Shown here: piece by piece, positions 1,391 to 53,164 of the stretch
How positions within the stretch are numbered: the stretch's first letter is position 1
How the letters are laid out: each line of letters starts with the position of its first letter
Assembly: GCA_025163595.1 (NCBI GenBank)
Contig: CP104100.1
Location: 868,001 to 932,000, forward strand
DNA: 64,000 bases
Source of the DNA: Phaeobacter sp. G2
GTDB lineage: Bacteria; Pseudomonadota; Alphaproteobacteria; Rhodobacterales; Rhodobacteraceae
Direction of reading: 5' to 3'
The notes under the pieces: generated by a model
Told to the model about the DNA's origin: nothing
What the model saw: the letters and a program-made list of their open reading frames with translations, nothing else
The model's database searches: none
Translations under genes and position numbers: made by a program

Positions 1391-1485
1391 AGGGAGGGCT
1401 CCCGCCCAGGACTTGGGGATTTGAAAATCCCGCGTCCTCGTTGGGCCGGGCGCCTACCGCTCTGAGAGAGCGGTAGGCGCGGCGC
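1391..1485 (+). repeat. GC-rich two-hairpin element, copy A
   Basis: Block GCTCCCGCC begins at 1398 and block TTGGGCC at 1441 (43 bp apart). Between them AGGAC/GTCCT (1408-1412, 1434-1438) encloses GGGATTT/AAATCCC (1416-1422, 1425-1431). After the second block comes a perfect 14-bp stem with a 3-base loop (1450-1463, 1467-1480). It lies 72 bases after the DUF4175 stop, in the same orientation. Confidence 0.65.
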
Positions 1486-1604
1486 CAGGCTGCACTGTCG
1501 CGGGAAGGTCCATGCGGCGGCCTATTTGGCTGTGGCAGCAGATCGGCCCCGGTGAACGTGGGCACACTGGAATTATGGGCACACTGGCCGAGACGTCGCC
1601 TGCT

Positions 1605-29822: not shown

Positions 29823-29908
29823 AGGAGGGGGGCTCCAGCGCAGGGCGTGCCGCATCAAGATGCGGCGCCCCCTTGGGCCCGGCAGCGCGCCGCCAAGGCG
29901 CGCTGCGC
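29823..29908 (+). repeat. GC-rich two-hairpin element, copy B
   Basis: GCTCC begins at 29832 and TTGGGCCC at 29873, 41 bp apart. Between them GCCGCATC/GATGCGGC (29849-29856, 29859-29866) is inside GGGC/GCCC. After the second block is a perfect 10-bp stem GCAGCGCGCC/GGCGCGCTGC (29882-29891, 29897-29906). It starts 24 bases after the DUF1989 stop. Confidence 0.65.
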
Positions 29909-29954
29909 TATCGCACCACAGAAGCGGCAGTGTGTTTGAACAGGCTGAGGTGGC

Positions 29955-29982
29955 AAGAAAAAGACGCCCCCCAAGGGGCGCC
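29955..29982 (-). terminator. Terminator of deoD
   Basis: On the minus strand GGCGCCCC TTGG GGGGCGTC (29982-29963) is followed by TTTTTC. The 8-bp stem and T-tract fit a rho-independent terminator. A weaker version reads on the plus strand. Confidence 0.75.
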
Positions 29983-30044
29983 TTTTGACTGGGTGGCACC
30001 GCCCAAGAGACGTGCAACTGTCGGACTAAGCTTACGCTCAGCGC

Positions 30045-40386: not shown

Positions 40387-41135
40387 GCAGTTTTGACAGT
40401 GCAAAAACCATTCTGATCACCGGGGCGAGTTCTGGCATTGGCCGGGCCGTGGCGGAGCTCTGCCTGTCCAGAGGCTGGCAGGTTGGTCTTTTGGCGCGCC
40501 GCCAGGAGGTGCTGGAAGAAATCGCCATGGGGCATGTGAATGCCACGGTTCTGCCGGCGGATGTGACCGATGCCACCGCCGTGGATCATGCGGTCAATCA
40601 ATTTGTCATGGCCACCGGCCGGTTGGATGTTTTGTTCAACAATGCCGGGATCTTTACCCCCGGTGGCAGTATCGACGAAATTGCCCTGGAGGATTGGTAT
40701 GCCTCGGTGAATGTGAACCTCAATGGTATGTTCCTTGCCGCCCGGGCAAGCTTTCGCCAGATGCGCCGCCAGACACCGCAGGGCGGGCGCATCATCAACA
40801 ATGGCTCTATCGCCGCCCATGTACCACGGCCGGGATCGGTGCCTTATTCAGCGACCAAATCCGCCATTACCGGCCTCACCCGCAGCCTGTCTCTGGATGG
40901 GCGGGCCTTTGATATCGCCTGTGGCCAGATTGATATCGGCAATGCCCGCACACCGATGGTCGAAGACCTGAGCGCCCGCCAGGCCGAGGCTGCCCCCGAG
41001 GCGGCGCCGATGCCAAGTTTTGCGGTGGAAGATGCGGCCAAATCGGTGCTGCATATGGCTGAATTGCCGCCAGAGGCCAATGTTCAGTTTATGACGGTGA
41101 TGGCAACCAAGATGCCCTATATCGGCCGCGGCTGA
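40383..41135 (+). CDS. Short-chain dehydrogenase/reductase
   Basis: A 250-residue classical SDR. NAD(P)-binding TGASSGIGRA is near 13, NNAG near 90, and the catalytic Ser and YxxxK (YSATK) are in place. The start ATG overlaps the helicase stop (ATGA). Substrate unknown. Residues after TGx3GxG suggest neither NADH nor NADPH clearly. Confidence 0.88.
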   Translation: MSSFDSAKTILITGASSGIGRAVAELCLSRGWQVGLLARRQEVLEEIAMGHVNATVLPADVTDATAVDHAVNQFVMATGRLDVLFNNAGIFTPGGSIDEIALEDWYASVNVNLNGMFLAARASFRQMRRQTPQGGRIINNGSIAAHVPRPGSVPYSATKSAITGLTRSLSLDGRAFDIACGQIDIGNARTPMVEDLSARQAEAAPEAAPMPSFAVEDAAKSVLHMAELPPEANVQFMTVMATKMPYIGRG

Positions 41136-41190: not shown

Positions 41191-41272
41191 GCAAGGGGGG
41201 CTCCCGCCCGGATGCGCTGCGCTTGCGCGCCGCAAATCCCGTTGGGCCCGGCGCCGCGCTGACGCGCGGCGC
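41191..41272 (+). repeat. GC-rich two-hairpin element, copy C
   Basis: GCTCCCGCC begins at 41200 and TTGGGCC at 41242, 42 bp apart. The spacer starts GGAT and ends ATCC. The second hairpin is GCGCCGCGC/GCGCGGCGC (41251-41259, 41264-41272) with loop TGAC. It starts 56 bases after the SDR stop, same strand. Confidence 0.65.
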
Positions 41273-41395
41273 AACAGAAAATCTGCTGAGAGGCTCTGAT
41301 CTGGCAGTATGCCCGATCAGAGCCAGTTCCAGAGTATTCTGTTTGACCTGACCTCAAGGGTGAACCGCGCTGGGGCGCGGCCGCTAAGCGGCCCT

Positions 41396-41511
41396 TGACC
41401 TCTGGTCAAACGAAAAGGACTGACCTCTGGTCAAACGAAAGAAAACAGGCCTCTGGTCAAACGAAAGAGACTGACCGCTGGTCAAACAAAAAGAGGCTGA
41501 GCTTTGGTCAG
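41396..41511. repeat. 25-26 bp tandem array, core TGACCTCTGGTCAAACGAAA
   Basis: Units start at 41396, 41421, 41447, 41472 and 41498 (spacings 25, 26, 25, 26). The first two contain TGACCTCTGGTCAAACGAAA exactly and the third and fourth differ by a few bases. Each has a dyad TGACC-TCT-GGTCA. The fifth unit is partial and runs into the stop codon of the minus-strand TIGR02186 gene. Confidence 0.75.
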
Positions 41512-51044: not shown

Positions 51045-51125
51045 CAAAGGGCGTGCTCCCGCCTGTTCCATGTGATCTGCGATCCCACTCACAGTTGGGC
51101 CTGGCGCCGCTGGCGCTGCGCGCTC
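51045..51125 (+). repeat. GC-rich two-hairpin element, copy D
   Basis: GCTCCCGCC begins at 51055 and TTGGGCC at 51095, 40 bp apart. The spacer can pair ATC/GAT around TGC. The second stem is short, GCGCC/GGCGC (51104-51108, 51112-51116). It is the only copy opposite to both neighbouring genes. Confidence 0.55.
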
Positions 51126-51173
51126 CCTAAACGAGATCAAGGTGGCCTTTGAGGGCCATTAGTAACAGGCGGT

Positions 51174-52091: not shown

Positions 52092-52245
52092 GATGTCCCC
52101 CTGCGTTTCACGTGCGGCGAATCTAGGAGGAAAAGGGTCATAGGGCCAGACCTTTTTGTTGGGCAGCCTTCGCGCTTGCTCACATTTATTCGGCAATTGC
52201 GCCAGGCTCTGAGACGCTCTTGCAGGTACCGTGCCCCAAGCGAAA

Positions 52246-52318
52246 CCGCGCGCCGATAGGCGCGCGGGGCCCAACAGGGGCGGGGCATCTGTGATGCACC
52301 ATGTCCCCTGGCGGGAGC
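52246..52318 (-). repeat. GC-rich two-hairpin element, copy E
   Basis: On the minus strand GCTCCCGCC begins at 52318 and TTGGGCC at 52274, 44 bp apart. The spacer pairs GCATC/GATGC and the second stem is CCGCGCGCC/GGCGCGCGG (52267-52259, 52254-52246) with loop TATC. It follows the ferritin-like Paa gene by 85 bases in the same direction. Confidence 0.65.
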
Positions 52319-52355
52319 ATTTGGCTCTGCCCCTCTCGCGGCAGCCGGCGCTGCG

Positions 52356-52402: not shown

Positions 52403-53164
52403 TCAGGAGGGCCGTGTCAGGCCCAGTCTTGCCAGTTTGGCGCCTGCTTCTGCCTGCCAGCGGGTTTTGAGCTCGCCGTTGGGGGTGCGACGCAGGCCCA
52501 GAGCCTTCAGCTCTTCAAACTTGGCTGAGTCTTCACTGCCAAAGCTGACGGCAACACGTGGCCACCAGTAGTCAACCGAGGCCTGTAAATCGCCCTTGCC
52601 GGAATCTTCTATCAGCCGTTCCAGACCTTCCTCCGCCAATTCCGCATGGCGGGCTTCGATCGGAGCCAGAGCGCGAAACACCTCGGCCAGAGGCTGATAG
52701 GAGATCAGCGAGAATTCAGCCAGCTGTACGGCGACGGCCCGGCCCATCAACAGGTTCATCACCACTGCATCCGCCCAGCCTTCCAGCGGGTAGTTGAACA
52801 CCGCCAGCCGCATGTCATGGTCCGAGCGCTGTTGGCCGATATCAGCATCGCGCCCCAGGCGCGCGGTCCAGGGGTGGTGATCTGCATAGCGTTCAGTATC
52901 GGCGCCAAATTCCCCCATGATCCGCAGCACGCGATCGGCGTTGTCGCTCTTCTCCAGCACGATTTTGGCAGCGGCAATACGGGCCTTGATGCCGGGGCCT
53001 TCGTTGATGATCTCGGCAAAACCAGCGGCACCCGCCAGTTCGCTGTCGACAAAGGTGGCCATCAGTTTCAGCAGGGCGGCGCGGTAGCGCGGTGGCACAT
53101 TGGCGGGATTGCTCAACATGCCTCCCTGGGCGAGATAGCTTTTGATGCTCATGTCCTCGGTCAT
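52403..53164 (-). CDS. PaaA/PaaC-type ferritin-like protein
   Basis: A 253-residue all-alpha protein of the phenylacetate catabolic (PaaA_PaaC) family. It has the pairing of acidic and His residues expected of a diiron ferritin-like fold (EARHAELAEE, LAVFNYPLEGWADA). It is the last gene of the paa operon, 24 bases after paaE. Its role is unknown: it could be an accessory or a second oxygenase component. An ATG four codons in (53152) is an alternative start. Confidence 0.75.
   Translation of the reverse strand: MTEDMSIKSYLAQGGMLSNPANVPPRYRAALLKLMATFVDSELAGAAGFAEIINEGPGIKARIAAAKIVLEKSDNADRVLRIMGEFGADTERYADHHPWTARLGRDADIGQQRSDHDMRLAVFNYPLEGWADAVVMNLLMGRAVAVQLAEFSLISYQPLAEVFRALAPIEARHAELAEEGLERLIEDSGKGDLQASVDYWWPRVAVSFGSEDSAKFEELKALGLRRTPNGELKTRWQAEAGAKLARLGLTRPS

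Follow-up and report, generated by a model that had tools for sequence, protein, structure and literature searches.

A clade-specific, REP-like two-hairpin element behind stop codons of roseobacters, probably a signal at the transcript end

The window, a stretch of 64,000 nucleotides from Phaeobacter sp. G2 (C1:868001-932000 of the 4.96 Mb host genome, G000), contains five copies, A to E, of an element in which two short blocks of sequence alternate with two hairpins (Table 1). A sequence-only reading had already recognised this family, and its overall observation holds, with corrections to copies B and E. The block said to be common to all five is exact, as GCTCCCGCC, in A, C, D and E and reads GCTCCAGCG in B. 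TTGGGCC is indeed present in every copy, with block starts 40-44 nt apart in A, C, D and E. Copy E had been placed at 52246 on the minus strand, a position near the low end of the model match listed in the table. Four copies follow a stop codon on their own strand, as had been read, and D is antisense to its neighbours. Each part of the element had also been said to fold; against shuffled sequences, single folds are better for A (z -4.0), B (-3.2) and E (-2.5) and not for C (-0.24) or D (-0.80). The covariance model used for the matches was trained on a set that included A, C, D and E and not B, and the next match in the window has an E-value of 0.18. An ordinary terminator-like hairpin shares the convergent gap with copy B, which is therefore not the sole candidate end signal in that gap. 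Elsewhere in the window, CCTCTGGTCAAACGAAAG is found in tandem copies at 41399-41500, behind copy C, and an ARAGORN call of tRNA-Pro at 40575-40671 falls within a well-scoring coding ORF and is probably spurious.

Table 1. Copies of the element and a neighbouring hairpin, in window positions (model E-values are rough)
Feature	Position	Strand	Model E	Parts	Context
Copy A	1392..1491	+	6.7e-11	block 1 GCTCCCGCC 1398-1406; hairpin 1 spacer 1407-1440; TTGGGCC 1441-1447; hairpin 2 from 1448	stop ends 1319, 78 nt upstream
Copy B	29826..29917	+	2.2e-6	GCTCCAGCG at 29832; TTGGGCC at 29873; two hairpins	stop ends 29799, 32 nt upstream; outside training set
Copy C	41194..41283	+	4.3e-13	blocks 41200-41208 and 41242-41248, then hairpin 2	stop ends 41135, 64 nt upstream
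Copy D	51049..51132	+	1.4e-9	blocks 51055-51063 and 51095-51101	between two minus-strand genes, antisense to both
Copy E	52237..52324	-	1.4e-9	block 1 starts 52318; block 2 52274-52268	84 nt behind stop of minus-strand gene 52403-53164
Two-way terminator-like hairpin (AAAAAG..CTTTT)	29958..29986	.			same convergent gap as copy B

The anatomy of the element was described from 189 copies gathered by exact-pattern searches, in which the blocks were fixed by the search and, for part of the set, GTTGGGCCCGGCG as well. Eight copies with too little flank were set aside, and any that was over 65% similar to a retained copy was dropped, reducing 181 copies to 132 non-redundant ones; positions behind block 2 were judged on the 50 copies not selected for GTTGGGCCCGGCG. 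The order is GCTCCCGCC, hairpin 1, GTTGGGCC, two free bases and a GC-closed hairpin 2, preceded by a G-rich stretch, often AAAGGGGG, which is not fixed. Block variants do exist, as copy B and the model matches show. The spacer between the blocks measures 29-42 nt (median 34, 132 copies) and folds into hairpin 1, and a G stands directly before the TTGGGCC of block 2 in 128/132. The two free bases behind block 2 are followed by GC in all 132 copies and in all 50 of the unselected ones, and this GC closes hairpin 2 in 119/132. Within hairpin 1, the pair at spacer positions +2/-3 is kept in 122 of 132 copies, against 81 expected, mostly as G-C (90), C-G (21) or A-T (9), whilst +1/-2 is a C.C mismatch in 76. 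In the commonest hairpin 1 base, CGTC/TCCCG (34/132), C.C, U.C and C.U mismatches surround a single G-C pair. At the second position after block 2, 47 of the 50 unselected copies have a purine, for the most part G, as if this base formed a U.G pair with block 1, which would be available on the plus strand only. Applied to the raw alignment, RNAalifold proposed that the two blocks pair with each other; most of the columns concerned are invariant and so lie beyond the reach of covariation. Four copies (L016, L019, L022 and L025) are followed by an A-rich stretch and TGCTGAGA, where a third hairpin is possible, and may represent a subfamily.

The stems vary between copies whilst their pairing is kept, as the sequence-only reading had noted. 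The covariance model (R1; 68 sequences, 19 pairs) has a structure set by hand from column counts and chosen on the same alignment that was used for counting. In that MAFFT alignment there are 153 two-sided changes against 52 in column shuffles, none of 500 shuffles reaching 153, with the proviso that the structure was picked there. Among 128 model-aligned copies the figures are 511 and 139, in an alignment whose fitting leans towards the structure. The covariation score is 0.30, against at most 0.13 in slid controls, and kinship among the sequences can inflate such tests.

Were a stem to act in the RNA of a single strand alone, G.U should be better tolerated in it than A.C. In the model alignment, which is fitted to the plus strand, 42 stem cells of 2292 hold G.U and 42 hold A.C. 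An earlier, simpler count had given A.C 52 and G.T 18 in hairpin 1, and 16 and 9 in hairpin 2, or 68 against 27 in total. RNA of the minus strand was considered from that first count; the 42:42 balance favours neither strand, and the lean of the first count towards the minus strand is not accounted for by the model alignment. Equality of the two mismatches suggests that both strands are used, that pairing matters in DNA, or that the arms are equalised by hairpin-templated copying. Use of both strands is plausible, since most copies sit between convergent genes. Hairpin-templated copying would also fit three otherwise near-identical copies of one genome, G015 (L225, L227 and L230), which carry two-sided changes at a common position of the stem. 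The covariation that had been taken as the mark of a selected structure is real, whilst the equal rarity of G.U and A.C counsels caution: covariation alone is no proof of a selected RNA.

In the host genome there are 37 occurrences of the exact pattern GCTCCCGCC-N25..48-TTGGGCC, against 2 of the reversed pattern. The exact pattern is present in 16 of 40 sampled genomes, host included, and in 6 of 30 genera, with 19-44 copies in each of the 10 congeners of that sample. G011 has one such match beside two control matches, and the covariance model later finds four copies in it; in G039, from another family, one match beside two control matches was treated as chance. Searching the host genome and its relatives with the model yielded more copies and more covariation than the first five had offered: at least 77 copies in the host, where the best 150 of 4494 candidates were scored, and at least 83 and 52 in the congeners G008 and G003. 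In the family, 120 genomes were searched, each from a different genus and with the best 36 candidates scored per genome, and at least 22 of them, the host being one, have a match. Genera with many copies are those of G000, G015, G017 and G099. In a class-wide sample, with the best 30 scored, the host alone of 142 genomes matched at E 1e-5; the listed part of that sample holds one other genome of the host family, without a match. Matches listed for a longer pattern include Leisingera, Phaeobacter, Pseudophaeobacter, Tritonibacter, Epibacterium, Ruegeria, Tropicibacter, Salinihabitans and Rhodovulum sp. 12E13. Plasmid records gave 18 matches, among them the Ruegeria sp. TM1040 megaplasmid, and the phage records searched gave none. 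The element is a family of the Roseobacter group: marine roseobacters have dozens of copies, most of them a short way downstream of the stop of an ordinary gene. Contigs titled Nocardioides marinus DP1N28-1 also carry it (L064 and L074); we infer that they are probably from a mislabelled roseobacter.

For the analysis of context, genes were called with a hexamer-based caller (trained on 445 of 506 long ORFs) and no annotation was used; L031, a single match in another family, was removed before counting. The 189 copies comprise 111 in convergent gaps, 34 in tandem gaps in sense orientation, 25 tandem antisense and 4 divergent, together with 2 inside genes and 13 at edges, which leaves 174 with both neighbours called. 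A gene on the same strand lies upstream of 145 of these 174 and is lacking for 29. The distance behind its stop codon has a median of 26 nt (quartiles 16 and 63.5; 143 copies within 600 nt), and 137 of the 143 begin at most 110 nt behind the stop, whilst the median from the end of the element to the next gene is 142 nt. Of the 111 copies in convergent gaps, 85 lie closer to their own stop than to the opposing one. Gaps of 20-900 nt that hold an exact copy are convergent in 69 cases, tandem in 50 and divergent in 2, against 76, 486 and 171 for gaps that hold none; the odds ratio for convergent gaps is 11.5, with Fisher's test giving P 1e-28 and 1e-10 for loci that are not independent. In tandem gaps the 34 sense and 25 antisense copies (34/59) do not differ from half (P 0.30). 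In the host genome 30 loci were tried, of which three lacked the relaxed pattern and one an upstream gene; for 26 copies found by the model both neighbours were called, and 24 of these have a gene of their own strand upstream.

Neighbouring copies less than 450 nt apart are arranged tail-to-tail without exception in three genomes (15/15, 17/17 and 7/7; 39/39 together), and L120 and L134 share a single hairpin 2. A fuzzy search finds tail-to-tail partners for 8 of the 25 tandem antisense copies, against a background of 122/2000. Copy D itself is antisense in this way. Opposite it, where the following gene stops, G003 and G001 have a further copy, and G008 has a degenerate one; for G003 and G008 there are model matches as well. 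On the larger scale, 50 of 75 copies in the host genome have the leading strand orientation (arms set from sampled skew), and each of the three chromosomes compared (G000, G008 and G003) has an element-free stretch of 0.73-0.84 Mb. In the host this stretch, C1 2.155-2.922 Mb, contains a GC-skew switch, and the replication terminus therefore probably lies there.

The 24 upstream proteins scanned include glycerol kinase, FolC, a UbiH-type hydroxylase, polyphosphate kinase 2, glutamate-tRNA ligase, HisG, tryptophan 2,3-dioxygenase, PhaR, exodeoxyribonuclease III and a PtsN-like protein (the last below cut-off); 3 of 20 had no match in the family scan. Since the 24 are varied and without a theme, gene-specific regulation was rejected. 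Tails behind hairpin 2 have at least four T in their first 7 nt in 6 of 119 copies. U-run terminators stand on 6 of 84 element strands and 13 of 66 opposite strands (P 0.027), or 31 of 188 when all other strands are compared (P 0.054); they are scarce anyway, being found on 18 of 122 strands in convergent gaps without the element. The view that the element is no known RNA stands, in that nothing lies above cut-off in Rfam 15. The whole window gave 0 matches at the gathering cut-off, and a permissive scan of 1300-1600 gave 10, all below it, the best at E 0.012 and 22.3 bits against a cut-off of 55. The same kind of scan, applied with a limit of E 1 to three G015 loci, gave none.

Some copies persist over considerable divergence and others do not. 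The orthologue of copy D in G008, G003 and G001 is clearly alike in hairpin 1 and the blocks, whilst its flanks can no longer be aligned. Copies A, C and E are missing from G003, and C from G001 as well; at the C locus G003 has a hairpin-2-like remnant alone. The set of copies changes from species to species, so that no gene seems to depend on having one. The orthologue of copy A in G008 is preceded by a short tandem array of another kind. Two strains of T. mobilis share all four loci that were chosen because their model lists differed, with 95-97% identity over 3.1 kb. In one of these strains, A3R06, hairpin 2 of L248 reads as poly-G followed by poly-C and is normal in the sister strain, probably a sequencing error at a strong hairpin.

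G015 differs in having at least 11 near-identical copies. Their likeness sets in at the first base of block 1 and extends to hairpin 2, whilst the sequences upstream are dissimilar, so that the left edge of the unit, at GCTCCCGCC, is sharp. For five copies a longer context was available, and each of these lies 11-79 nt behind a sense ORF of 171-704 codons, as judged by codon-position GC; orientation in G015 is claimed for these five alone. On 651-base pieces the upstream gene was called on the same strand in 6 of 16, on the opposite strand in 9 and not at all in 1, gene calling being judged unreliable on such short GC-rich pieces. Most of the copies L225-L239 have a second conserved block, CTTTCATCTCTTYGGCAAATACTCCGGGGGTGAGGCC..GGCCGAGGGGGCAGCGCCCCCTT, behind hairpin 2. 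Its end also precedes copy L234, and it may be a separate dispersed repeat; a regular-expression scan found none in the window. The Y1 transposase domain PF01797 was found in none of G000, G008, G003 and G015, with controls positive in 5 of 14, and once in G017, a genome that has copies of the element.

Taken together, these observations suggest that the element is probably a clade-specific, REP-like 3'-end element, spread by copying, which serves as a signal for transcript-end formation or 3' protection. To the fuller proposal, a dispersed 3'-UTR family of about 90 nt, copied rarely, whose hairpins mark the end of the message by termination or 3' protection, we would give an even chance. The sequence-only reading had offered a 3'-UTR element, a terminator family and a mobile palindrome as options and is partly supported: location and orientation fit a 3'-end element. 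The element would be transcribed just behind the stop codon, its RNA forming hairpin 1 between the fixed blocks and the GC-rich hairpin 2 behind them, and the two hairpins would jointly mark the message end. RNA polymerase might then stop without a U-run, probably through a factor that reads the fixed blocks, or the hairpins might halt 3' exonucleases after Rho-dependent termination. As there is no U-run as a rule, release of polymerase by the hairpin alone is unlikely; likelier routes are a block-reading factor or Rho-dependent ends that are trimmed as far as the hairpins. Tail-to-tail pairs could serve two convergent genes, and new copies would arise by rare duplication of a unit whose left edge is block 1. 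Anatomy, covariation, location, orientation, the persistence of some copies and the copying in G015 are observed directly; the end-forming or end-protecting role, the block-reading factor and the route of copying are what we infer.

A role at the transcript end is argued for by placement on the gene strand behind stops, avoidance of divergent gaps, convergent pairs, the sharing of a last hairpin and indifference to gene function. To these may be added the retention of copy D where its flanks fail to align and the rarity of U-run terminators on the element strand relative to the opposite strand. Against it count the near-lack of U-runs, the absence of an excess of G.U over A.C, the copies without a same-strand upstream gene, the unbiased orientation in tandem gaps, the terminator-like hairpin beside copy B and the turnover of copies between species. 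An ordinary family of intrinsic terminators would account for a GC-rich hairpin behind stop codons, yet this already weakened reading is scarcely credible given the six U-run tails in 119 and the two fixed blocks, which ordinary intrinsic terminators are not known to have. The identical GCUCCCGCC in many 3' UTRs might instead serve as the C-rich pairing region of a trans-acting sRNA or sponge family released from 3' UTRs; with no relative in Rfam, and with tail-to-tail pairs that would be unexpected for sRNAs, we consider this very improbable.

A rival that spares the host any function is a REP-like mobile palindrome, spread by some enzyme and surviving mainly where it does least harm, behind genes. 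The burst of copies in G015 with its sharp left edge and the differing presence of A, C and E between species speak for it, and REPs likewise lie near 3' ends and between convergent genes (PMC3733652). The copies compared outside G015 are however mostly old: copy D retains its blocks and hairpins between diverged flanks, the four T. mobilis loci are in both strains, stems differ between paralogues, and the Y1 domain is missing from the host and the burst genome, though not from G017. We regard a purely selfish palindrome as possible and rather unlikely. Rather less probable is a site that acts in DNA, a cruciform or a place where gyrase or another protein binds between convergent genes, with the effect of relieving supercoils or organising the chromosome, as with some of the REP clusters (BIMEs) of E. 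coli. The strong preference for convergent gaps, the parity of G.U and A.C in the stems and the element-free stretches, with the skew switch in that of the host, would suit such a site, and the parity may equally reflect use of both strands. Most copies are nevertheless anchored to one stop codon in a fixed orientation, asymmetric mismatches recur in hairpin 1, and the purine at +2 fits pairing to block 1 in the plus strand alone.

It is tempting to consider that the 3'-end signal belongs to a previously undescribed class, a two-hairpin element that lacks a U-run and has its blocks recognised by an RNA- or DNA-binding factor dedicated to it in roseobacters, and which stands singly or as a tail-to-tail pair insulating convergent genes and is copied in the right orientation without a Y1 transposase; this would be a tentative and somewhat doubtful extension. 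By what means messages are ended in GC-rich bacteria poor in U-run terminators is a standing question. With its many copies, fixed blocks, free stems and mostly stop-anchored position, the element offers a direct test bed for transcript ends. It is not described in the available portions of PMC2864571, PMC12306157, PMC3733652, PMC1525189 and PMC4809877, nor was a description found in the literature searched, a scope to which most subscription journals do not belong.

Several known systems share features with the element. Intrinsic, Rho-independent terminators likewise place a GC-rich hairpin soon behind the stop codon, whereas the element has fixed blocks and a U-run in 6/119 only. Integron attC sites have a variable stem and GTTRRRY and RYYYAAC boxes, and lie behind stop codons in gene orientation. 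The element resembles them in its variable stem, in GTTGGGC, which fits GTTRRRY, and in its place behind stops. By contrast, the RYYYAAC box is found at its left end in 0/132 copies, the upstream genes identified are ordinary chromosomal ones, and the integron integrase TIGR02249 stayed below cut-off in all three genomes scanned, as it did in all 14 controls. An attC identity was rejected on the box and the integrase.

REPs in general are, like the element, short, extragenic and palindromic; they number in the tens, lie behind genes, are over-represented where genes converge and often form inverted pairs (PMC3733652, PMC12306157 and PMC1525189). REPs have also been linked to gyrase and mRNA stability (PMC1525189). 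The element shares their extragenic position near 3' ends, in convergent or unidirectional gaps, with 2 of 189 copies inside called genes. It differs in having two hairpins, two fixed flanking blocks and stems that vary between copies where REP units are alike, stem included, the G015 burst being the exception; its close pairs are tail-to-tail only. With no PF01797 (Y1, TnpA_REP) domain in the host, a RAYT-mobilised REP was rejected. The CGTC-tagged REPs, according to PMC3733652, are alphaproteobacterial, lie near 3' ends and have no dedicated transposase, likenesses that the element shares. Their pairs are mainly head-to-head, and they have a terminal unpaired CGTC tag, a stem started by AT and a short unpaired tail, mostly CCA (PMC3733652). 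In the element CGTC is internal, directly behind block 1 in 44/132 copies, and CGTCAT, the tag with an AT-started stem, is found in 5/132, which places it outside that group; it has in addition fixed blocks, a second hairpin and no sequence-constant stem. The nearest known kind is the REP, and in particular the CGTC-tagged REPs of alphaproteobacteria.
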